36,058 nucleotides of DNA, from IMG/VR virus record IMGVR_UViG_3300046837_000186, positions 1-36,058 of that record, one strand, 5' to 3'. This stretch comes from a virus. Of the stretch, positions 2,122-30,057 are shown one piece after another (position 1 is the stretch's first letter; every line of letters starts with the position of its first letter). Below the pieces are notes generated by a model, which ran no database searches, was not told the origin of the DNA, and saw nothing but the letters and a program-made list of their open reading frames with translations. The translations under genes were made by a program, and so were the position numbers.

Positions 2122-2133
2122 GCCGTCAGAACA
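2111..2133. promoter_or_regulatory. 7-bp inverted repeat over the -35 box (candidate operator)
   Basis: TGTTCTG at 2111-2117 and CAGAACA at 2127-2133 form a perfect 7-bp dyad around 9 bases containing most of the -35 box. It includes the stop codon of the upstream gene. No T-tract follows on the minus strand, so a repressor site is more likely than a terminator. The arms resemble an SOS-type box only loosely. Confidence 0.45.
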
Positions 2134-2773
2134 CCAGCCACGCGGCCAACTCCATGCGCCACGTCGGTTCCTTCTCGAAGGCGCGGTCAAAGCGGAGCCT
2201 GAGCGCCACGCGATCGGAGAACCCGTAGCCCGGCTGGAGGGCGGCGAATCCGACCAGCGGCGCGCCGTCCGCCAGGTCGCGCCGGAGCCCACCGCCGGCC
2301 GAGAACGTCAGCCGCGAGAGTGCGAACGGGCTCACCTTCGGCTCATCCGCGCGGGCCGTCCCCGCGAGGCCCACGAGCCCCACCAGCGCCAGCAGGACAG
2401 CCGCCCCGCGCGCCTTCTTCAAGCCCGCCGCGGTGGCCGCCGTCAGCGACTCCCCGGCCCGCAGCGCCCCGTCGCCCAGCAGGCCCAGCAGCGCACCCCA
2501 CGGGTTGCCGCCCGCCACGAGGATCCCGAGCCCGGCCGCCAGCAGCGGGTTCAGGGCGTCCCGGTGAGCGGTCCACCAGGCGCCGACATGCTGCACGGCC
2601 TGCGCCTCGCCCTTCTCGACCGCCGCATGGCCCTGCTTGGCCATCGAGCGGACGAGGTTCACGATCAGGCCGACCGCCATGCTTACCAGGAGCGCCGCGA
2701 CCTTGGGGTCGAGCCCCGGGAGGATCCTGCCGACCGCCTGCTGCACCGCTGCCACCACCACGAGCGAATCCAT
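2126..2773 (-). CDS. Membrane protein with holin-like N-terminus and beta-barrel-like C-terminus
   Basis: A 215-aa protein starting at ATG 2773, with GGGGAGG upstream. Hydrophobic segments lie at about 22-42, 73-100 and 120-138. The third ends in GLVGLAGTARADEP, which looks like an internal signal-peptide cleavage site (A-x-A). The remaining 75 residues alternate polar and hydrophobic positions (LSRLTFSAGGGL, GFAALQPGYGF, VALRLRFDRAF) and end in Phe, as outer-membrane beta strands do. A holin or other lysis role fits the neighbourhood, but no family is recognised. Alternatives are a fused exported protein or a membrane-anchored exclusion factor. Confidence 0.6.
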   Translation of the reverse strand: MDSLVVVAAVQQAVGRILPGLDPKVAALLVSMAVGLIVNLVRSMAKQGHAAVEKGEAQAVQHVGAWWTAHRDALNPLLAAGLGILVAGGNPWGALLGLLGDGALRAGESLTAATAAGLKKARGAAVLLALVGLVGLAGTARADEPKVSPFALSRLTFSAGGGLRRDLADGAPLVGFAALQPGYGFSDRVALRLRFDRAFEKEPTWRMELAAWLVF

Positions 2774-4283: not shown

Positions 4284-4378
4284 CAGCGCATCAGCAGGTA
4301 AACGACGAGCGCCACGATCAGGCCGATCGCGCCGAGATTCGTGGCGCGCATGACCTGCGTTCCCTTCTCCGGCGTCAT
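4283..4378 (-). CDS. Tiny single-span membrane protein (31 aa)
   Basis: ATG at 4378 overlaps the stop of the 75-aa gene (ATGA), and its own stop overlaps the next start (TGATG). The product is a short charged head followed by a hydrophobic stretch, GAIGLIVALVVYLLMR, and nothing else. Precise coupling on both sides argues that it is real. Position among lysis genes suggests a holin/antiholin or spanin accessory. It has no lipobox Cys, so it is not an Rz1-type lipoprotein. Confidence 0.55.
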   Translation of the reverse strand: MTPEKGTQVMRATNLGAIGLIVALVVYLLMR

Positions 4379-4602
4379 GCGTCCCTATCCTCCCTGCGGC
4401 CGTCCTCGCGGTCGGTCCACCGTTCGAGATCACGCACGCGCGCTGCGAGCCGCTCGCGCTCGAGCTTCTCCTCGGCGATGTCCTCGCGTGCGTTCTCGAT
4501 GGCGTCCTTCGTCACAGCCTTGCTCACGCCGGCGTTGACGAGGATGGTGCCGATGGTGACGACCGCCAGAACCAGCGAGACATGCAGCGGCGTGATGACC
4601 AC
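4375..4602 (-). CDS. N-terminal TM plus coiled-coil protein (holin or i-spanin candidate)
   Basis: I prefer the GTG at 4602, preceded by AGGGGGT, giving 75 aa. A GTG at 4638 would add 12 polar residues and lacks a clear ribosome site. Residues about 5-25 (LHVSLVLAVVTIGTILVNAG) form one membrane span. From about 30 to the end the chain is highly charged and heptad-like (AEEKLERERLAARVRDLERW). This topology matches Rz-type inner-membrane spanins and some small holins. The endolysin lies four genes upstream. Confidence 0.55.
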   Translation of the reverse strand: MVITPLHVSLVLAVVTIGTILVNAGVSKAVTKDAIENAREDIAEEKLERERLAARVRDLERWTDREDGRREDRDA

Positions 4603-4638
4603 GGTGCTACCCCCTACCTGTGTTCCGTTGATGACCAC

Positions 4639-5238
4639 TCAGCGAATGACCACGAAGCGCAGGAGCCGGCGCTCGCCGCTCGACTGGAGCCGCAGGATGT
4701 AGACGCCGGGCGACAACTCGGCGACGCCGAACAGCGAAAGATGAGGGCCTGCGGCGAGCGTGGCTCGGATGATGGTGGCGATCCTTCGCCCCCCGAGATC
4801 GAATAGCTCCAACTCCGCAGGCCCAGAAACGGGCAGGGTGAACTGGACGGTGGCGCGGCGCTGCGCCGGCTGGGGAATCACCGGGCCGAGAGAGAGCCGA
4901 TCGGACGCGCCCGGCACGCCGGTCGATGCCATGTTCAGGCGCTTCTCGTTGCCGTGGCATGCGGGCGGGCCGCCGTCTCGAAAGGTGATCGCCCAGCACG
5001 TCCACTCGAGCCCGCGATCATCGAACGCCGCGGAGAGTTGCTGGCCTTCCTTGCCGCGCGCGGCGACCAGCGCGAGCGTCTCGGGAGCAGCAGCATTGCG
5101 CGCCCAGCCGATCACCGCGCAGCGGGAGGCATCGCGCAGCGGAACGATCGTCGGGGGTCCGCACTCGACCGTGTCCGAGAGGAACGCCGGCACGGTCCAG
5201 TGGAGCGTCACCACCGTGAGCACCACGAGCGGAATCAC
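4639..5238 (-). CDS. Secreted protein with FlgD/Por-type C-terminal sorting domain
   Basis: A 199-aa protein from the GTG at 5238 (GTGA overlap). A hydrophobic N-terminus (IPLVVLTVVTLHWTVPAFL) resembles a signal peptide. The middle has several Cys residues (about 26, 40, 81 and 94) that could form disulfides after export. Residues about 115-199 match the bacterial C-terminal sorting/FlgD-Ig pattern: a Pro-rich entry (PVIPQPAQRRA), VQFTLP, AELELFDLGGRRIATI, LSPGVYILRLQ and a final FVVIR. In Bacteroidota and relatives this domain sends proteins through the type IX system to the cell surface. In a phage it implies that the host export route is used, and it hints at host phylum. No catalytic motif is seen in the short middle part. 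Confidence 0.65.
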   Translation of the reverse strand: MIPLVVLTVVTLHWTVPAFLSDTVECGPPTIVPLRDASRCAVIGWARNAAAPETLALVAARGKEGQQLSAAFDDRGLEWTCWAITFRDGGPPACHGNEKRLNMASTGVPGASDRLSLGPVIPQPAQRRATVQFTLPVSGPAELELFDLGGRRIATIIRATLAAGPHLSLFGVAELSPGVYILRLQSSGERRLLRFVVIR

Positions 5239-5573
5239 CGGAGCCTCAGCACGGTGATCGTATCGGGCCCGTCGTCCGGCATGACGTAGTGCTTGCCGCT
5301 CAAGTCGAACTCGGCCCACACCTCGAACTTGATCTCCTGGTGTACACCGGGGTCCATCCCTGAGATCGCGCCGGGCGTGAAGGTGATGGTGCCGAGGACG
5401 CCGCCCATCGTCGGAACGGTGCTGCTCGCGGTCCCGCCCGCCTGCCGGAAGTAGACCAGCGGCGTGGTCGCGGCGGTCAGGTCCACGAGCGCGCCTGAGT
5501 CCCGGTCCTTGATCTGCCACGCCAGCGTTTTGAAGGTGTCGCCGTAGACGAAGTCCGCGATCCATCCGGTCAT
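5235..5573 (-). CDS. Baseplate/tail beta-sandwich protein (BppU-N-like)
   Basis: A 112-aa protein with start ATG 5573 (ATGA overlap). The sequence follows the Ig-like N-terminal domain found in siphovirus upper-baseplate proteins: VYGDTFKTLAWQIKD, GALVDLTAATTPLVYF, a Gly-rich turn, GTITFTPG, then a final strand set ending PDDGPDTITVL. It probably attaches another receptor-binding or baseplate component. It sits in the late region among tail-associated genes. Confidence 0.55.
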   Translation of the reverse strand: MTGWIADFVYGDTFKTLAWQIKDRDSGALVDLTAATTPLVYFRQAGGTASSTVPTMGGVLGTITFTPGAISGMDPGVHQEIKFEVWAEFDLSGKHYVMPDDGPDTITVLRLR

Positions 5574-6214
5574 GTCGATTCCTCCCCCAGCCATCGCGCC
5601 ACCGTCACCGCACCCGTTGAGCGCGCCACAACCTCATGCCCCGTCAGCCGGGGTGTCAGCTCGCGCCCGGTCTGGCGCACCACGTCCACGGCGCCCACTC
5701 TGCGGAACACCGCGGTGTCGACGGTGCGCTCGCCCAGCACCACGACCTCGAGCTCCATAATGTCGAGCGAGATCTCGCCGAACGCAGTACCCGACCACGT
5801 GACGCGATCCCACACGGACAGCGCGTTGACCGCAGTGGCCGTCCACGCGGCACCGCTGGGTGCCGTCCAGATGGTCGACGTCTCGATCCAGTCGGGCGTC
5901 GTCGTGTCTTTTGGCAGCGCCGTCAGAGGTTGGCGCTGGCCCTGGTCGGCGCCGACGCTCCACTTGATGCGCCCGCCGCTCGTGATCCACGTGACCGTGC
6001 CGCCGTCCACAGTCGCGCGGCCGCGCACCCTCAACACCACGCCAGATACCTGCGTGTCGACCGGCAGCGTGCCGTTCAATGGCTGCGGCTGCTGCTCGGC
6101 GAACGCCTGCGCGGCGGGCGCCGCGGTCTGATCGAAGGTCGCGTCATCGTCGTCGGCCAGGTCGCCGCCCGATGGACGCATGCGCGTGACTTCAACGATG
6201 GCGGCGACGCTCAC
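5570..6214 (-). CDS. Tail-associated beta-rich structural protein
   Basis: A 214-aa protein from the GTG at 6214 (GTGA overlap with the endolysin stop). It is rich in Val, Thr and Trp, with strand-like stretches such as DTQVSGVVLRVRGRATV and AFGEISLDIMELEVVVL separated by turns. Many tail-tip or fibre-associated jelly-roll proteins look like this. The last 50 residues repeat R-x-x-G-A-V/T-x-V patterns (VFRRVGAVDVV, VARSTGAVTVARWLG). No family assigned; the position after tail genes supports a virion role. Confidence 0.5.
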   Translation of the reverse strand: MSVAAIVEVTRMRPSGGDLADDDDATFDQTAAPAAQAFAEQQPQPLNGTLPVDTQVSGVVLRVRGRATVDGGTVTWITSGGRIKWSVGADQGQRQPLTALPKDTTTPDWIETSTIWTAPSGAAWTATAVNALSVWDRVTWSGTAFGEISLDIMELEVVVLGERTVDTAVFRRVGAVDVVRQTGRELTPRLTGHEVVARSTGAVTVARWLGEEST

Positions 6215-6729
6215 GTGATCCCCACGCGCGCACGCCACTGCGCCAGCGAGAGCCCGGCGCGGTTTTCAAAATGCGGGCGGTCGGGGAACTTCCAGTTGCC
6301 ACCCCACTCGAGCCCGAACTCCTCGCCGGTCACGCCGACCGTTTCCCACGGCCCGTCGAACACGTCTTTCGGCGTGGTGTCGCCGTCGAAGGTGACGATG
6401 CAGACGTCGAAGGCGCGGCCGAAGTTGTGGAACGAGTAGCCGGGCCGCGCGTTGGTGACGGTCACGCCGAGCGGATGCTCGGCGCACGTCCCGACGTCCC
6501 GGTGCGCGCGCTCGCCCTTGTGCCAGCACGGTTCACCGGGCGCCGTGCGGCCCTTCTGCCAGAGCTGCATTTGTTCGGTCACGGAGCGGAGCCCCTGCGT
6601 CACCCGCAGGAGGATCCCATGCCGCACGAGATTCGCCTCGCCCATGCTGATCGCCTGGACGGCGACCAGCGGGTCGAGCGGATAGAGCAGCCCGCGCGGG
6701 TCGAAGGCGTTGCGATCGAAGGCGCTCAA
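6211..6729 (-). CDS. Endolysin, M15 (VanY/Ply500-like) L,D- or D,D-peptidase
   Basis: A 172-aa peptidoglycan hydrolase that cuts stem-peptide cross-links. The start is a TTG at 6729 overlapping the preceding TGA as TTGA; the first internal ATG (6642) would remove 29 residues. The zinc site is intact: SFHNFGRAFDV (His101, Asp108) and DRPHFEN (His153), with GLEWGGNWKF just before the last ligand and Asp150 as the probable general base. LLRVTQGLRSVTEQMQLW is the usual family N-terminal helix. There is no signal peptide or cell-wall-binding domain, so it needs a holin to reach the wall. Confidence 0.88.
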   Translation of the reverse strand: MSAFDRNAFDPRGLLYPLDPLVAVQAISMGEANLVRHGILLRVTQGLRSVTEQMQLWQKGRTAPGEPCWHKGERAHRDVGTCAEHPLGVTVTNARPGYSFHNFGRAFDVCIVTFDGDTTPKDVFDGPWETVGVTGEEFGLEWGGNWKFPDRPHFENRAGLSLAQWRARVGIT

Positions 6730-8672
6730 TGGAGCCCGCCCGGATTCTGCGTAGCGACGTTCTCGGCCCAGTCCCACTTCCACAGCGCGCGGCCGGCGAA
6801 GCGGTTGGCCGTCTGCGACTCGATGATCAACTGACGCACCGCCCACCAGTCCGTGCGGTACGGCACGGTCCCCTGACCTGCGCCGCCGAGCCCGTTCAGG
6901 TGGGCGTAGTAGAGATGGAGCCCGGTATAGAAGTTGTGCGTGTTCTGCGGGAATGGCCCATTGCTGCCGATGTACCACGGCTGCACGACGCGGCCCCATG
7001 AATACTCGCTGCCGATGTCGTGGCCGCCGTCCCGGTAGTAGATGGACGAGGACTGAGAGCGCGCCCGCATACCGATGAGCGGGAGAGTGCCGATCGGCTG
7101 TTTCGTCGTCCCGCTCCCACCGTTGGCGTAGACCGGGATCACCGTCTCATTGTAGAACGCGCTGCTCCAGGGACCGGCGCCGCTAGGGTTGAGCGCGATC
7201 TCAGGATAGAACGACACCGCGCGCGCGCCGGCCGCCCAGAACGCCCACGCGAGCGAGTCGAGCGTGCGCCCGTTCGCGCGCGTGATCGACTTCGCCCATG
7301 CCCAGTTCGGCGCGAATACGGTATGATCGACGCGCCCCGGGTAGATCGAGTCGGATTTCGCATAGACCGACTTCATCAGGCAGAAGATGGACGAGTCGTC
7401 GTTTGCGCAGGTCGTCGGCAATGTCGTCGCGCTTGGCGGCAGGATGCGGCGCAGGCGCGCCGTGGTCGAGTTCTCGCCGAAGATGTCGACCGGGAGATTG
7501 CGCGACGCCAGCCCGGACGCATCTCCGCCCGTCGTTCCGCGCCAGACCTGCGGAGCGAAATGCACCTTGCTCCCGCCGAACAGCTCGAGATATGGCTTCT
7601 GCCACGCGAGCGCCGCGGCCGAGTCCGGCTGAAAGAGCATCGTCACGCGCTCGCCGAGGGCCGCGAACTCCTGCGCGGTCGTCCGAACGTTCGCGCTGTC
7701 ACACGAGTCGGAGCGGCAGAAGATCCCCGACTTAGCGATCGTCGACACGCGATAGTCACCGTACGAGTAGCCGGTCCCGATCACGATGCCGCCCGTCATC
7801 GGGAGCATCGCCGGGTTGTCGAACACCTTCCGCCCTGATAGCGAGTCGAGCCGTGCGAGCCCCTGCAACACCTCGAACGAATCGAAGCTCCCGGGAGCAA
7901 TCCCAGCGTCGAAGAACAGGATGTGAGCGTTCGGGTTGAAGTGCCCGGTCGGCGGGCATCGCTCCCAGGCGCACACCGTGTCCGGGTTGGCCAAGGCATT
8001 CGTCGGCGTGTCGGCGTTCTGCACTGCGGACGGGACCGCCCCGCTGTAAGCGGTCCCCTGTACCTGCGCCGTGCTCATGCCGATCAGCGGGCGCCAGCAC
8101 GTTCCCGGATGCGTCGGGAGCGTCGAGTTTTTCGAATAGTGCATCGCACCTTGGTTGAACCAGCCGAGCCCGGTTTTCACGTCATACCGACGCCACACCG
8201 CGACGCCGCCCGTGGGCGAGCCGCCCGCCGTGGCAGCCGTCCCGGTGGTGTCGCCGTTGCCGCCGCCGTCGCTCCACTTGTTCGGCCCCGATAGCTCGTT
8301 CTGTCCGAGAACGAGCATCGGCCCGGCCGCCCATCCTGCGGTGCGCCACGCGCGCTGAGGATCGAACTTGGCGCTGGTCGTGAACGTCGCGTTCCAGATC
8401 ACCACGAAGGCGTCATACTGCTTGCCCGTGTGCGTGAGGGTGTCGCGGACGTAGAACGTGCGATAGGCGGTCGTATCCACCAGCGACCACGGCAGGACGT
8501 CGACCGTCGCGCCGGCCTGATCGAACCAGCCCTTGACGCAGGCTTCTGGGTTGCTGATGGCTACCGCATTGGAGCCGCCGAGGTTCTGCGCGTCCACGAT
8601 CGCCGTGAGCGCGAAGGCGGGGCCGGCCGAAAGCGCGAGCGCGGCGAATGCCGCGAGAATCACGCGACGCAT
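6726..8672 (-). CDS. Large secreted protein of unknown function (648 aa)
   Basis: ATG at 8672 shares a base with the preceding stop (TAATG). A clear signal peptide is present (MRRVILAAFAALALSAG, then PAFA, cleavage near 22). The mature chain is rich in Ser, Thr, Gly, Trp and Tyr with several Cys pairs (about 236-242, 320-325 and 415-425), fitting an exported protein. Blocks such as YDAFVVIWNATF, GPMLVLGQNELSG and GERVTMLFQPDSAAALAW suggest an alpha/beta hydrolase-like core. The C-terminal half contains HNFYTGLHLYYAHLNG. I recognise no catalytic signature. It is the largest member of the signal-peptide set, between the 267-aa protein and the endolysin. Confidence 0.6.
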   Translation of the reverse strand: MRRVILAAFAALALSAGPAFALTAIVDAQNLGGSNAVAISNPEACVKGWFDQAGATVDVLPWSLVDTTAYRTFYVRDTLTHTGKQYDAFVVIWNATFTTSAKFDPQRAWRTAGWAAGPMLVLGQNELSGPNKWSDGGGNGDTTGTAATAGGSPTGGVAVWRRYDVKTGLGWFNQGAMHYSKNSTLPTHPGTCWRPLIGMSTAQVQGTAYSGAVPSAVQNADTPTNALANPDTVCAWERCPPTGHFNPNAHILFFDAGIAPGSFDSFEVLQGLARLDSLSGRKVFDNPAMLPMTGGIVIGTGYSYGDYRVSTIAKSGIFCRSDSCDSANVRTTAQEFAALGERVTMLFQPDSAAALAWQKPYLELFGGSKVHFAPQVWRGTTGGDASGLASRNLPVDIFGENSTTARLRRILPPSATTLPTTCANDDSSIFCLMKSVYAKSDSIYPGRVDHTVFAPNWAWAKSITRANGRTLDSLAWAFWAAGARAVSFYPEIALNPSGAGPWSSAFYNETVIPVYANGGSGTTKQPIGTLPLIGMRARSQSSSIYYRDGGHDIGSEYSWGRVVQPWYIGSNGPFPQNTHNFYTGLHLYYAHLNGLGGAGQGTVPYRTDWWAVRQLIIESQTANRFAGRALWKWDWAENVATQNPGGLH

Positions 8673-9475
8673 TACCGTCCTCCGATCAGGTCGGCGCGCA
8701 TCGGAGTCGTGATCGGCGTGACCGCGTTAAGCCCCGTCCGGTAGTAGAGATTTCCGCCCGTGGTGTAGACGACGTATGGGCCGTATCGGATGCGGAGCGA
8801 GGCGTACTGCTCGCCACAGCGCTGCGGCAGATCGACGTAGAAATATCGCTTGCTGCCCATCTTGTCATAGGGCGGGATCAGGACCGCGATCTCCCCGACC
8901 TCGGCGCGCAGGATGTTGTTCGCCACCGCCTGGCCCTGGTATGTCGTTCCCGCCTCCATGACCGACAGCAACGAGTCGGCCGGAAGGAACAGGTTTGCGC
9001 TGATCTGATCGAGGCGCGGAGCCTGTCCGGGGATCGCCGACGCTGAATCGTTCGCCGTCCCGAACCCGAAGCGGATCGAGACGTATACGATCTGCCCGCG
9101 CACCGCGCTGGCCGAGTCGGACACGGTCGGATAGAGGATCGCGCGCAGGAAGTTCGCGCCGTTGAGCGGCTGCATCGCCGACGAGTCCGCGGAGCCAACG
9201 GCGGTCGCGGACTGATAGTTGTTGATGATGTTCGCGGCGCGTAGGTAGAAATTGCGATCCTTCGCGACCTCCTCAACGCTCATGGAGCCGGCCGTCGATC
9301 CTTGGCGCACGCTGACGCCGAGCGGAGTCGTTACATCCGTGACGACGGAAATCTTGGTCCCGGTCGCCTGAGTGCTCTGCCCGTTCCCCACCGTCTGCGC
9401 GCTCGCCACCGATCCCCACACGAGCGCCATTGCCACCAGAGGCCCGACGTAACGGGCCGGCGTTCTTCCCCTCAT
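8672..9475 (-). CDS. Secreted beta-rich protein (267 aa) with capsid-type translation start
   Basis: ATG at 9475 with an N-terminal signal peptide (basic head, then VGPLVAMALVWGSVASA, cleavage after residue 27). The mature part alternates beta strands and Ser/Asp/Ala turns: QIVYVSIRFGFG, VGEIAVLIPPY, SKRYFYVDLPQR and YGPYVVYTTGGNLYY. The PTVSDSASAVRG segment echoes DESDSDFVV in the 197-aa protein at 29441, so they may be distant relatives. Its leader carries the hairpin plus GGGAGGGGTGGGGGATGAG start shared with the major capsid gene, implying heavy expression. Function unknown: a virion surface protein, or an exported protein acting on the host envelope. Confidence 0.6.
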   Translation of the reverse strand: MRGRTPARYVGPLVAMALVWGSVASAQTVGNGQSTQATGTKISVVTDVTTPLGVSVRQGSTAGSMSVEEVAKDRNFYLRAANIINNYQSATAVGSADSSAMQPLNGANFLRAILYPTVSDSASAVRGQIVYVSIRFGFGTANDSASAIPGQAPRLDQISANLFLPADSLLSVMEAGTTYQGQAVANNILRAEVGEIAVLIPPYDKMGSKRYFYVDLPQRCGEQYASLRIRYGPYVVYTTGGNLYYRTGLNAVTPITTPMRADLIGGR

Positions 9476-13386: not shown

Positions 13387-16300
13387 GCCACCGCCGCGAT
13401 CTCAGCGATGCGGTCATTGGCGCGCCGCAGATTCCCGGAGGGGGCGAGCAGGTCGAGCGTCACGCTGCGCGCGTCAAGCGCGTTGATCTGGTAGGTGTTG
13501 CCGCCGCCCGCGGCCGCGAACAGCCGCTGGTCGCGCAGCATCTTGTTCTGTTCGCGCAGCAGCCCGGCCAGCTCGGCGGTGTCGGTGCGGCCGGCCGCGA
13601 AGCCGGCGACCGGGCGCGCCGCAGCGAGCGCGAACGCCGGGGCGGCTGCCAGGCGCGCGGCGGCGAACGTCGGCGGCGTCAGGGCGCGCGAGGCGCCGGC
13701 CAGCGACGCCCGGAGCCCCGCCAGCCCGCCCGCGAGCGCGCCCGCGAGGCTCGAGATATTGAGCGCCGGCAGGGCCGGGAGCTTGAGCTCCGGCACGCTG
13801 ACCGCCACGGCGGGCCGCGGGATGGACGGCGCCGCCACAGAGACGGCCGGAGCCGCAACCGCGAGGCTGACGGCCGGCGATGCAGCGGGCGCGACGTTGA
13901 CCACGGGCGCGGCGGCGGCGGCCACCGAGACGGCGGGCGCCACCAGCGACAGATTGACGGCCGGAGCCGCGACACGCACCGCAGGGGGCGCCGGCAGGAC
14001 CACCGAAACGCGCGGCGCTGGCACTGAGATGGCGGGCGCCGGAGGAATCACCAACGAGACGGCCGGGGGCGCCACGCGCAGGGCGGGCGGCGCCGGCACC
14101 GCCACGTGCACGGCGGGCGGGGCGACCGAAACGTCAGGAGCGGCCAGCGAGAGGTTCACGGCCGGCGCAGCGACGCGGACGGCGGGCGCGGGCGCCAGCG
14201 TGATCGAGACGGCCGGGGATGGCACTGAGACGGCCGCCGGCGGCGGCACGGAGACGCGCACGACGGGCGGCGGCGGCGCAGCCACGGCCGCGCGCACGGG
14301 CGCCGGAGGCGGCACGTTCACCGTGACGTCCGCCGGCGGCGGGACGGCCACGCGCACGACCGGGGGCGGCGTCGCAGCGACCGACACCGAGACGGCGGCG
14401 GTCGGCGGAGCGGCCACCGTGACGGCGGGCGCGGCAACTGAGACGACCGGCGCGGCCGGAGCGGCCACCGAGACGTTCACCGCGGGCGCCGCCACCACGA
14501 CTGTCTGGGCTGCGGCCGGGGCCGCTGAGCTGAGCCCGGCACCACCGCCCGTGACACCGGAGTCAACCAGGCTGATCGCCGCCCCCGCAGGGCCGCCGCC
14601 GAGGAATCCGATGAGGAACTTGAACACCGCGGCGCCAGCGAGGCGCGCCAGTTCGGCCAGCACCTCGTTCACCAGCGACTTGAAGATCGTGACCATGGCC
14701 GACTTCAGCGTCTGCCCGGTCGTGAGGAGCTGGGACGCCACCGTCTGGAATCCAGACTGGAGGCCGTTATAGAGCGCGCTGAACGCCGCGTTCGCGATCG
14801 CCGTCTGCGTCAGCATGTCCTCAACGGCCGACTTCCAGCCCTCGGCGACCGATGCGAACGCCGCGCGCAGCTTGGGCGCCTGCGCGATCAGGTCCTGCTG
14901 TGCCTTCCGTGCCTTGTCGAAGTCGAACGGGATGGGCTGCGAGATGGGCGGCAGCGGCGGCGGGGTGGAGCGCGCCACGATGCCCTTCGGCTGCAGGGTG
15001 GCGCCCTCCTGCTCATCCCGCACCGCCTTGACCACGACCTTGAGCTGCGCGGCAGTGAGCTTCACGCCGAAGGCGAGCAGCACGGCGTTCAGCGAGTCGA
15101 AATCGCCCGCGGCGCGCAGGATCGCATGCAACTGTGCGGTGTTCGCCTTGACGCCATATTCCTTGAGCGCCGCGTCGAGCGCGGGGATGTCGGACTCCGC
15201 GCCGATGCTGACCTTGATGCCCTTCTTCTCGAGTCGCGCCTGCGCGTCGGCGAGGTTCCGGTCGAGCTGCTCCTTGTCGAAATCAACGCCAACCTTGATG
15301 AGCGCGTCGCGGATCTGCAGGCGCTTGGTGGAGTCGTCCACTTTGTGGATCTCGGCCTGGAGATCTCTCGCGCGCGCGGCGTTGTCCTCGAACAGGCGCT
15401 CAAGTTCCGCGAGTTCCTTCTGTGCGGGCGTGAGATCGACCTTCGCCAACTCCTTGAGCTTCTGGGCGAGGTTGGGATCTTCCTGCACGGTGACGTGCGG
15501 CTTGACGACCACGTCGACCTGCTGTGGCGTCAGGTGGACGCCGAGCGCGCCGAGAGCCGACGAGATTGCCGCCGCGGCGGGCACGAGCTTGATGCTTTCG
15601 ATCTCGTGCCGGAGCGCCTTGATGCGCTCCGTGAGCAGCTCGACGTTCTTCGCGTCGGACAGGCCGGGACCGAACAGAGGGCCCTGCGTCAGATTCGGAA
15701 TCGCGCCGGGCGCGGGGTTCTTGAGCTTGGCGAGCCTCTCCTCGGCATCGGCCAGTTGTTTGTTCAGCACATCGAGCGCGTTTACCTCGACGTGCTTGCC
15801 GGAGATCTCCGCAATGATGTCGCGCAACTCCTTGAACGCGGCAACCATTGCCAGCGCGACCGGGATGGTGTTGGCCTTCCATCCGTTCGTTAGGCCGACC
15901 CACTGGCGGTTTAGTTCGTCCGTCTGCTTGTCGAGCGCGCGCGCGCCCTCGAGCGTCTTGTCGCTCATCACGACGCCGAGCTTTTCCATTTCGCTGCGGG
16001 CGTTCGGGAGCTGCTGCGCGAGCTGGTCGATCTTCCCGAGCAGCACGGCCGATCCGCGGCCGAGCAACTGGTATGCGACTTCGACGCGCGCGGCGTGGTC
16101 CTTGCTGGCGGCGAGGATCTGAACAAGCTGGTTGAACGCCTGCCAGGTGTCCTTGGTCGTGATGCCGAGCTTTTTAAGCAGCGGGTCCTGCGTGGCGATC
16201 GCGCGATTGAGGAAGTTGAACGCGATGTTCGCATCTTCGGCGCTGCCCCCCGCTTCGCGGAGGATCTGCTGCATCGTTTGCAGATTGCCGACCGAGACGC

Positions 16301-19747: not shown

Positions 19748-20604
19748 CCGACTCTCGAGAACAGCACGATGCCGCGCAGGACGTCGGCCGGCCAGTTGAA
19801 GTCGCTCACATACTCGGAGGCGTTGAGCATTTGGACGTTGCCGGTCCGCCCGCGCGCCTGCCGGAAGTCGTCCCATAGCACCTTGACCATGCGCTGCGAC
19901 AACTGCTGGAGCTGCTGCCAGCCGTCGAAGCCGCGCGCATTGACGCCCGCGAGCGGCGGCAGGTAGCCGGCCACGCACTCGACCTCCACGTTCTGGCTGC
20001 CGACCGTCCACGCGCCATAGGGCAGGATCACCTTCGACATTCCGGGAATGGTTTCCGAGACGATGCGCATGCCCGTCAGGCTGACCGCGGTCAGGTTGTT
20101 GTTGATGTCGCGGAAGTTGATCGCCGACACCGAGACGAGCGGCGACTCCTCGACGTAGAGCACTGGATAGCCTTCGTCCGACCGCTCATCGCCGCCATCG
20201 ATCACGAGCGGGCCGGAGCCGAAGGTCAGGCTGGTCGCACCCGCCGCCGTCGCCGGCTTGGAAAGCACGAGCGCGGTGCTGCTGGTGATCGACTCGACGA
20301 GCGTCCCCGCCGCGGTCCCCGTCGCCGCGACCTCATCGCGCTCCCGGAGCCCCGACGTCGCGCCGGCGGTCGCGTTCGCGCTTCCGGTCGTCAGTGTGAA
20401 CGTGGCAGTGACGGGCGTGCGATAGCTCCGCGCCGCGAGGCGCCGGCCGGTCGAGAACTCCAGATCGTCTGTGATCGCGTTGATGAAACTGACCACCGAC
20501 TCCGGGACGTCGATGCCCTTGTCGGTGCCCTCGTTCCGGCGCAAATAGGACATCGCGCGGTCGAGCGTCAGGAAGGCGTAGGGGTGCAGATCAGGATGGT
20601 TCAT
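19744..20604 (-). CDS. Head-tail connector (gp6-like) with inserted beta domain
   Basis: A 286-aa protein, ATGA overlap at 20604. The N-terminal helices (YAFLTLDRAMSYLRR, VVSFINAITDDLEFSTGRR) match the gp6/gp15-type connector that sits under the portal. A Thr/Ala/Ser-rich stretch (about 60-125, e.g. TAGATSGLRERDEVAATG) looks like an inserted beta domain. The C-terminus returns to the connector pattern with YLPPLAGVNARGF and RMVKVLWDDFRQARG. It is longer than the approximately 100-200 aa typical of the family because of the insert. Confidence 0.65.
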   Translation of the reverse strand: MNHPDLHPYAFLTLDRAMSYLRRNEGTDKGIDVPESVVSFINAITDDLEFSTGRRLAARSYRTPVTATFTLTTGSANATAGATSGLRERDEVAATGTAAGTLVESITSSTALVLSKPATAAGATSLTFGSGPLVIDGGDERSDEGYPVLYVEESPLVSVSAINFRDINNNLTAVSLTGMRIVSETIPGMSKVILPYGAWTVGSQNVEVECVAGYLPPLAGVNARGFDGWQQLQQLSQRMVKVLWDDFRQARGRTGNVQMLNASEYVSDFNWPADVLRGIVLFSRVG

Positions 20605-21806
20605 CGGGCGGTGAAGGTCACTTTTTGCCAGTTCGCGCCGTTGTAGAAACAGAACACGGTGGCGGCCGTGTCCCACATGAATTCGCCGGTCTGCGGGTCC
20701 GGGATCGACGCGAACCCGCTGCCCGTCCACGAGTCGCGGCCCATCTGATTGCGGCCGTTGTCAGACATGCGGGTCAGCTTGGCGCGATTGGTTCCGGTGG
20801 TGCTGAGGCCGTGGGACGTGGCGTTCGACAGGTCGTAGACCTTGTTCCCGGAGAGCAGCACCTCGTCCTGGCCCGAGCCGCCCATGTTGATGTCGTCGGT
20901 ATAGGGGCCGCCGCCGTTCTCCTGAATGATGTTGTCCCTGAACACGATTCCGATCGACGCGCCGCCCGTCATCACCGACTTGAGCGGCCGCGGTGCCTTG
21001 TTCGCGATCGGGCGCACCATGTTGCAGCCCTGAATCACGAGCCCGTCGACCTGCCCGGAGCCCGAGAGCTCAACCATCGCCGCAGTCGCGGTCGTGTCGT
21101 GAAACTCCATCCACGCGCCCGTGACCTTGTTCGCGCGCGGATAGGTGCTGCCGTTCACCGACACGCGCAGGCCCACGACGTTCGACCCGTTCGGCGGCTC
21201 GATGGTCCCGCCCGTCAGGTGCGTTTGGCTGCAGCCGTCGAACTGCACGACCGCGGTCGTGCTCGAGGCTGCGCCCTCCCAGTTGCACTGGCGCACGTTC
21301 GCCGCGAACGAGAACGGCCCGAGATAGCACGAGCCGTTCGAGGAGCAGTTGGAGACGTGAACGCGGACGATCTCCGGCAGCACCACGTCGGCGCCGGCAT
21401 CACCCACGACCACCGCCCAGCTCGGCGTGCCGTCGATCACCACGTCGGCGACCAACTGCCCGCGGATCACGCCCGCCGTGTCAGCGATATGCACTCCGTA
21501 GCCGGAGCCCGAGGAGCCCTGCCCCTGGATCTTGATGTTCTGGAGGCTCGCATTCTCGCCGGTGATGCTGACCGCCGTGATCGAGGTCGACTGCCCGGTG
21601 AGGTCCAAGATCGTCGCGCCGTGACCTGCTCCCCGCACATGCACGCTGTCCGGGATCGACACGCCCGTGAACGCCGGCACACTCGTCGCGCTGTAGGTGC
21701 CCGCGGGAATGAACACGGATCCCCCAGTGCTCGCCACCGCATCGACCGCAGCCTGGATCGTTGCGTATGCCTTGGCGTTGATGAGTCCGACGATCGGCGT
21801 GGCCAC
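20601..21806 (-). CDS. Right-handed beta-helix (pectate-lyase-like) protein in the head cassette
   Basis: A 401-aa protein from a GTG at 21806, directly after the TAG of the 56-aa gene. The start matches the pectate-lyase superfamily entry of phage tailspikes: AYATIQAAVDAVASTGG, VFIPAGTYSATS and VHVRGAGHGATILDL. Repeating turns follow (ITGENASLQNIKIQGQ, GLVIQGCNMV, IVFRDNIIQENGGG). The C-terminus has a small domain ending in FCFYNGANWQKVTF. Such folds bind or cleave polysaccharides. No catalytic residues can be assigned by eye. Its place between capsid and connector genes is unusual and suggests a capsid-bound fibre or spike. Confidence 0.7.
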   Translation of the reverse strand: MATPIVGLINAKAYATIQAAVDAVASTGGSVFIPAGTYSATSVPAFTGVSIPDSVHVRGAGHGATILDLTGQSTSITAVSITGENASLQNIKIQGQGSSGSGYGVHIADTAGVIRGQLVADVVIDGTPSWAVVVGDAGADVVLPEIVRVHVSNCSSNGSCYLGPFSFAANVRQCNWEGAASSTTAVVQFDGCSQTHLTGGTIEPPNGSNVVGLRVSVNGSTYPRANKVTGAWMEFHDTTATAAMVELSGSGQVDGLVIQGCNMVRPIANKAPRPLKSVMTGGASIGIVFRDNIIQENGGGPYTDDINMGGSGQDEVLLSGNKVYDLSNATSHGLSTTGTNRAKLTRMSDNGRNQMGRDSWTGSGFASIPDPQTGEFMWDTAATVFCFYNGANWQKVTFTAR

Positions 21807-29440: not shown

Positions 29441-30034
29441 TCAGTACAGGCGCTTCGGGTACCGAATGAAGCACCGCACGCCCGATAGCTTCGGAGTCGT
29501 TCCGCCCTGGTCGCCCTGCACGCGCAGTCGAATCAGCCCGGCGCCATAGCAGTTGATCGCGGTCGGGAGCGCATCGGCGTCAGCGAGCAGGACGCCCGAA
29601 TATCGGACGTTGGACGTCCCCCCGAAGCCCTGGTCGACCACGGCGACATTGCCGGCCGCCGAGGTCGGCCCGGCCGGCCAGTTCTCCCAGATCGTGATCG
29701 GGATGCCCGCCGCCGTGTAGGTCGGCACGCCGCGCTGGACGACGTAGTAGATCGAATCGCCTGCAGCGTTCGACGTCTGGGCGGTGAAAGTCACGAACGC
29801 CTGGACGTAGGGAAGGATTCCGGACGCCGGATTCGCGGCCGGCCAGTCCCAGTCGGCCGTGTTGATGACCACGAAGTCGGAATCGCTCTCGTCCGTGACG
29901 AACGTCGTATCGAGGCCGGTCGTCCAGAACGGGTGAATCTCGTTCCACTCGATGGCGTGCGCCGGAGTGGAGATGGCGAGCGTGGCGCCCACCAGAACCG
30001 CGAGGAAAGCCGAGAAACCGAGAACACGCTTCAT
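29441..30034 (-). CDS. Secreted beta-rich protein (197 aa) upstream of terminase
   Basis: ATG at 30034, with GGAGG about 10 bases upstream; a GTG at 30043 would add three residues. A textbook signal peptide runs to residue 27 (RVLGFSAFLAVLVGATLAIS, then TPAHA). The mature chain is acidic and beta-rich (FVVINTADWDWPAANP, YVQAFVTFTAQTS, GDSIYYVVQRGVPTY), with two Cys near the C-terminus (INCYGAG, VRCFIRY). Its leader bears the AGGG hairpin. A signal-peptide gene at the head of the packaging cassette is unusual. It could be a virion protein that matures outside the cytoplasm, or an abundant exported factor. Confidence 0.6.
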   Translation of the reverse strand: MKRVLGFSAFLAVLVGATLAISTPAHAIEWNEIHPFWTTGLDTTFVTDESDSDFVVINTADWDWPAANPASGILPYVQAFVTFTAQTSNAAGDSIYYVVQRGVPTYTAAGIPITIWENWPAGPTSAAGNVAVVDQGFGGTSNVRYSGVLLADADALPTAINCYGAGLIRLRVQGDQGGTTPKLSGVRCFIRYPKRLY

Positions 30035-30057
30035 AACCGCCACCCCTCCCCGTCCCT

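Follow-up and report, generated by a model that had tools for sequence, protein, structure and literature searches.

Does a phage send a protein of its own to the surface of its host through the bacterial type IX secretion system (T9SS), and if so, in which host? The question is raised by a gene for a 199-amino-acid (aa) protein on the minus strand (positions 4639-5238) of the IMG/VR virus record IMGVR_UViG_3300046837_000186, which was analysed over its full 36,058 bases (hereafter the window; guanine-plus-cytosine (GC) content 65-70% throughout). A sequence-only reading had given this protein a signal peptide and a FlgD/Por-type C-terminal sorting domain, and had hinted at a host in the FCB group or a sister lineage. 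Profile searches and a predicted structure now confirm that the protein ends in a T9SS type A sorting domain, and we consider it probable that it is a phage-encoded T9SS cargo reaching the host surface. Phage proteins known to exploit a dedicated outer-membrane secretion route of their host are few.

The two ends of the protein

Residues 121-197 match TIGR04183 (Por_Secre_tail; NCBI model) with 26.9 bits (E 3.4e-6, profile positions 2-71 of 72), above the curated cut-off of 23 bits; with a match up to residue 197 of 199, the domain reaches the extreme C-terminus, and the protein is the sole match to this model in the 36-kb record. The motifs VQFTLP, ELFDLGGRR and LSPGVYILRL, on which the sequence-only reading had relied, are present where it placed them. 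The FlgD half of its label is the weaker one, as PF13860 (FlgD_ig) does not match the protein up to E 0.1 and gives a weak 18.2 bits, below 27, with a relative described below (relative a); “T9SS type A” is thus the better name. The Pfam model PF18962 scored 18.3 bits (E 0.0029), below its gathering score of 27. Among the PHROGs, structural families included, the protein has no match up to E 0.1, and no family for host-type sorting domains was found there.

When the window protein was modelled by AlphaFold2 together with six bacterial sorting domains, the N-terminal half was poorly predicted, whereas residues 112-199 reached a predicted local distance difference test (pLDDT) score of about 90 and were modelled with seven strands (within residues 116-197) in an immunoglobulin (Ig)-like sandwich. 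The C-terminal domains (CTDs) of gingipains have seven strands as well. Structural matches of the modelled fold include PorU (6za2, Z 9.4) and the mirolase CTD (8qb1, Z 8.9). A profile of the same seven sequences retrieved the CTDs of RgpB, RgpA and mirolase from the PDB at E 4e-4 to 1e-3, matches that were partly helped by its Bacteroidota rows.

The gene is real: its GTG start at 5238 overlaps the TGA of the upstream gene as GTGA and has a GAGG a short way upstream. The encoded N-terminus, MIPLVVLTVVTLHWTVPAF, is hydrophobic, and its Kyte-Doolittle value of 2.63 is the third highest among the window proteins tested; the signal peptide claimed for it is therefore plausible but not of the textbook type, because Lys or Arg is absent ahead of the hydrophobic stretch. 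Relative b, the second of the two relatives, begins with a textbook-like signal peptide, MRGSVAVSLLMLFVVAAQA, and a hydrophobic N-terminus is common to the window protein and both relatives. The domain that follows was left unnamed, since a search that considered FN3 yielded no Pfam match, and an enzyme domain is not recognisable in the protein.

Relatives and the phages that carry them

By its gene content the window is a phage, encoding a terminase (phrog_2, E 3.5e-17), a portal with a head-morphogenesis part (phrog_2662, E 9e-68), a capsid, a tape measure and an M15 endolysin; nearly identical pieces of it occur on three other IMG/VR contigs. No close relative of the 199-aa protein was found in IMG/VR by protein, C-terminal domain or two-row alignment, and the sole C-terminal match there, L006, was rejected because it belongs to another gene that carries the LELFDLGG motif by chance. 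Isolate phage records gave no match at E up to 10.

When bacterial genomes were scanned with nothing but the sorting domain, the best match came from a Candidatus Eisenbacteria metagenome-assembled genome (MAG), with 53% identity over 57 residues. The whole-protein search of 47 Eisenbacteria genomes led to relative a in the MAG G036, covering residues 5-198 with 35% identity (E 2.6e-25) and itself exceeding the TIGR04183 cut-off (25.2 bits). Relative b, in the same MAG, is partial as its gene is cut by the contig end; its E of 1.6e-22 comes from a two-row profile and leans on relative a being inside that profile. Among 99 sampled Bacteroidota genomes, matches were confined to portions that contain the C-terminal domain and did not exceed 56 bits; a full-length counterpart was not among the matches listed. 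The likeness extends to the N-terminal regions, which compare against shuffles with z 13.5 for the window protein and relative a and z 14.5 for relatives a and b; the link between the window protein and relative b is transitive, as their direct comparison gives just z 2.7.

Where do these relatives reside? Relative a, on a 4.3-kb contig (L049), is flanked by a replication initiator (phrog_1032, E 4e-15) and a TcmP protein (149 bits), following the replication gene and standing outside any lysis cassette. Relative b, on a 9.5-kb contig (L076), comes after tail genes (phrog_1101, E 2e-179), a GH108 endolysin and two genes of unknown function, the same spacing from the endolysin as in the window; homology between the two intervening genes of one locus and those of the other was not demonstrable, and a search for synteny past the endolysin position yielded none that could be shown. 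At two of the three places, then, an endolysin precedes the sorting-domain gene by a few genes: one of the M15 kind in the window and one of the GH108 kind beside relative b.

An IMG/VR search with relative a retrieved L090, part of a 32-kb phage record (G148) with portal, methyltransferase and capsid genes, which is collinear with L049 at 80-88% DNA identity, while the opposite end of the record runs collinear to L076, with 54% identity in the hub and 47% in the endolysin. Both G036 contigs, collinear with this one record, are phage DNA and seem to derive from a single phage type, which in that case would carry two sorting-domain genes. Where relative a would lie, the 32-kb record has retained just its first 42 codons (90% identical), after which the frame diverges and ends; the gene thus sits at a variable site and can be dispensed with there. 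The remainder of the record contains no further copy. The truncated gene itself (L090, 7136-7276) stops after 47 codons and is followed by unrelated genes, including one for a DNA methyltransferase. Save for a weak tape-measure match and a methylase match, the structural genes of the window phage and of the phage of the 32-kb record are unrelated; the sorting-domain protein is therefore common to unrelated phages.

Host assignment and T9SS machinery

An Eisenbacteria member is the most likely host of the window phage, an assignment based on the relatives in phage contigs of a MAG and on composition, rather than on a spacer of clustered regularly interspaced short palindromic repeats (CRISPR) or a cultured host. 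This fits the FCB-group or sister-lineage host suggested earlier, and the candidate phylum does carry such proteins and the genes to export them. Sorting tails occur in all 47 genomes, with up to tens per genome; the SprA model matches 46 of the 47 (38 over cut-off) and none of the control genomes, and the PorU family model matches all 47 (32 over cut-off) and, below cut-off, two unrelated controls. In G036 both exceed their cut-offs. The sequence-only reading had named two outcomes that would refute it, a lack of significant matches to sorting-domain models and a host lineage devoid of such proteins; neither was seen, the second as judged from the candidate phylum. No paper naming both Eisenbacteria and type IX secretion was found in the literature searched.

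The tetranucleotide profiles of the window and G036 correlate at 0.86, weak evidence because 0.81 was likewise obtained with a high-GC phage locus that is unrelated. Assigning the host by prophage did not succeed: the major capsid protein and the terminase gave only weak local matches in one genome each, and the secreted 648-aa protein of the window gave none.

Proposed mechanism and alternative explanations

We propose that the 199-aa protein would be expressed late, together with the tail and lysis genes, as its position suggests, and exported by Sec through its hydrophobic N-terminus. The SprA translocon of the host would then recognise the C-terminal domain and a PorU-type sortase would process it, a step which draws on a domain recognised by sequence and model and on machinery seen in the candidate host phylum; the N-terminal domain would finally stay exposed at the outer surface or be released from it. 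The phage would most likely benefit from a host surface changed during infection, above all by the exclusion of competing phages and, as next choice, by help in disrupting the outer surface at lysis. What the protein does at the surface is the weakest step of this mechanism. A surface change against superinfection is favoured because a protein of this sort could bring it about without enzymatic function and because the gene, at its variable site, has the behaviour of an accessory gene, while help in lysis comes next because of the gene position; even so, superinfection exclusion as the role is doubtful. More broadly, we tentatively entertain that unrelated Eisenbacteria phages share a dedicated, T9SS-exported family of accessory proteins coating or remodelling the surface of the infected cell, a strategy bound to hosts that possess a T9SS and in some cases coupled to lysis; this is a generalisation that we would sooner doubt than assert.

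Several observations weigh against T9SS export in an Eisenbacteria host. The fold matches are unspecific, as unrelated Ig-like sandwiches tie with T9SS domains; a second look with VIA-align placed generic sandwiches of many families in its top rows, a list that excludes no family. A PDB search with the window protein as single sequence found no match, hence the share ascribed above to the Bacteroidota rows. Furthermore, the putative signal peptide lacks a charged start, and the sorting domain alone reaches 56 bits in some Bacteroidota, against 62 in the best chromosomal-type Eisenbacteria genes. As for the host, the structural genes of the window have no good match in the 47 Eisenbacteria genomes, a DNA and spacer search with the first half of the window returned only high-GC matches at chance level, and the phage contigs of G036 could be mis-binned.

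Could the protein be a virion or tail-adhesion protein instead, its C-terminal Ig-like sandwich merely resembling a sorting domain and serving binding or assembly? Phage tails often carry Ig-like domains, one of the fold matches is the lambda tail tip (8iyk), and the gene comes after the tail and lysis genes; yet the sorting-domain cut-off is exceeded by both the window protein and relative a, the domain sits at the very C-terminus, all three proteins start with hydrophobic residues, the PHROG structural families gave no match, and relative a lies beside a replication gene rather than virion genes, and we regard this explanation as unlikely.

A further alternative is a Sec-exported periplasmic accessory of lysis, akin to a spanin or a factor of lysis timing; its C-terminal domain would contact the outer membrane on the periplasmic side and not pass through it. 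That the gene lies few genes past an endolysin in two unrelated phages, and directly before the gene of a one-helix membrane protein, speaks for it; this family of tails is, however, known for translocation across the outer membrane, and relative a is found outside a lysis cassette, which leaves such a role distinctly improbable. Very improbable, in our estimate, is a host surface-protein gene acquired by chance and without a phage role, be it a passenger or an artefact of binning or assembly: against the tens of such tails in each host-type genome, and the broken relative that one phage evidently dispenses with, stand the GTGA overlap with a phage neighbour gene, full-length matches located solely on phage-like contigs among the 47 Eisenbacteria and 99 Bacteroidota genomes, and relatives in an unrelated phage. 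Export to the host surface through the T9SS stays the reading that we prefer.

Neighbouring genes

The sorting-domain gene follows the tail and lysis genes of the window (Table 1). The small protein encoded directly downstream has the highest N-terminal hydrophobicity among the window proteins tested; its lone phrog match (E 0.09) is without function, and it may be called holin- or spanin-like by position only.

Table 1. Coordinates of the sorting-domain gene, its parts and its neighbours in the window.
Feature	Position	Strand	Evidence
Sorting-domain protein gene, stop codon included	4639..5238	minus	Open frame, 199 aa; GTGA overlap; GAGG upstream
Hydrophobic N-terminus, residues 1-19, probable signal peptide	5182..5238	minus	Kyte-Doolittle maximum 2.63 over 12 residues
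N-terminal domain, residues 20-111	4906..5181	minus	Homology to relative a; some low-confidence modelled strands
T9SS type A sorting domain, residues 112-199	4642..4905	minus	TIGR04183 over cut-off; seven strands; profile matches to PDB CTDs
Small protein, directly downstream	4375..4638	minus	One hydrophobic segment, then charged tail; coiled-coil probable
Gene of unknown function, directly upstream	5235..5594	minus	Open frame; no family match; GTGA overlap
Gene of unknown function, between endolysin and sorting-domain gene	5570..6238	minus	Open frame; no above-cut-off family match
M15-type endolysin, three genes upstream	6211..6999	minus	PF13539 40.4 bits; phrog_2649 endolysin E 1.1e-22

Elsewhere on the minus strand, the proteins of 6726-8672, 8672-9475 and 29441-30043 have good signal-peptide-like starts, ending in ..AFA, ..ASA and ..AHA, and show neither a sorting domain nor a clear family match; several late genes of the window phage may, from such starts, be exported. 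The 215-aa protein of 2126-2773 (minus) contains hydrophobic segments, an internal signal-peptide-like stretch (..LVGLAGTARA-DEPK) and a C-terminus resembling outer-membrane strands. A beta-helix protein (TIGR03805, 29 bits, below cut-off) is encoded at 20601-21806 (minus), downstream from the capsid gene within the head region, which is an unusual site for a pectate-lyase-like protein. A long Ala/Val/Pro-rich stretch with repeats like APAVSVAAP occurs in the tape-measure protein (about 13500-14700, minus).

Comparison with known systems

If our reading is correct, phage-encoded T9SS cargo extends from phages of Bacteroidetes to those of Eisenbacteria, a small protein family is common to two unrelated phage types, and the sorting tag could serve to assign metagenomic phages to hosts with a T9SS. 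The result also draws attention to the SprA and PorU-family genes across Eisenbacteria. The idea of phage T9SS cargo is not new, since Cryophage and crAss-like phages provide precedents; as far as the literature searched shows, the host phylum, the small cargo, its recurrence in unrelated phages and the neighbourhood of lysis genes are.

Among the variable genes of Cryophage, three that encode T9SS type A sorting domains were described, and the authors raised the idea that the phage makes use of the host's secretion system (PMC7468147, 2020). The likeness lies in the cargo itself and in its place among variable genes, as relative a appears to have; the cargo of the window differs in its 199 aa with no recognisable enzyme domain, its position beside lysis genes and its probable Eisenbacteria host. 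Sorting-domain proteins were likewise reported from crAss-like phages, one of them fused to a presumably carbohydrate-binding BACON domain (PMC6949934, 2019), whereas a search of the window protein against Pfam detected neither BACON nor another known N-terminal domain; moreover, those are gut phages of Bacteroidetes in which the genes adjoin head genes (PMC6949934). Finally, our protein resembles the T9SS type A cargo of bacteria, such as gingipain RgpB and mirolase, in its C-terminal domain by hidden Markov model, predicted fold and profile match. In contrast to these host-encoded and usually large enzymes or adhesins, it is phage-encoded and short.
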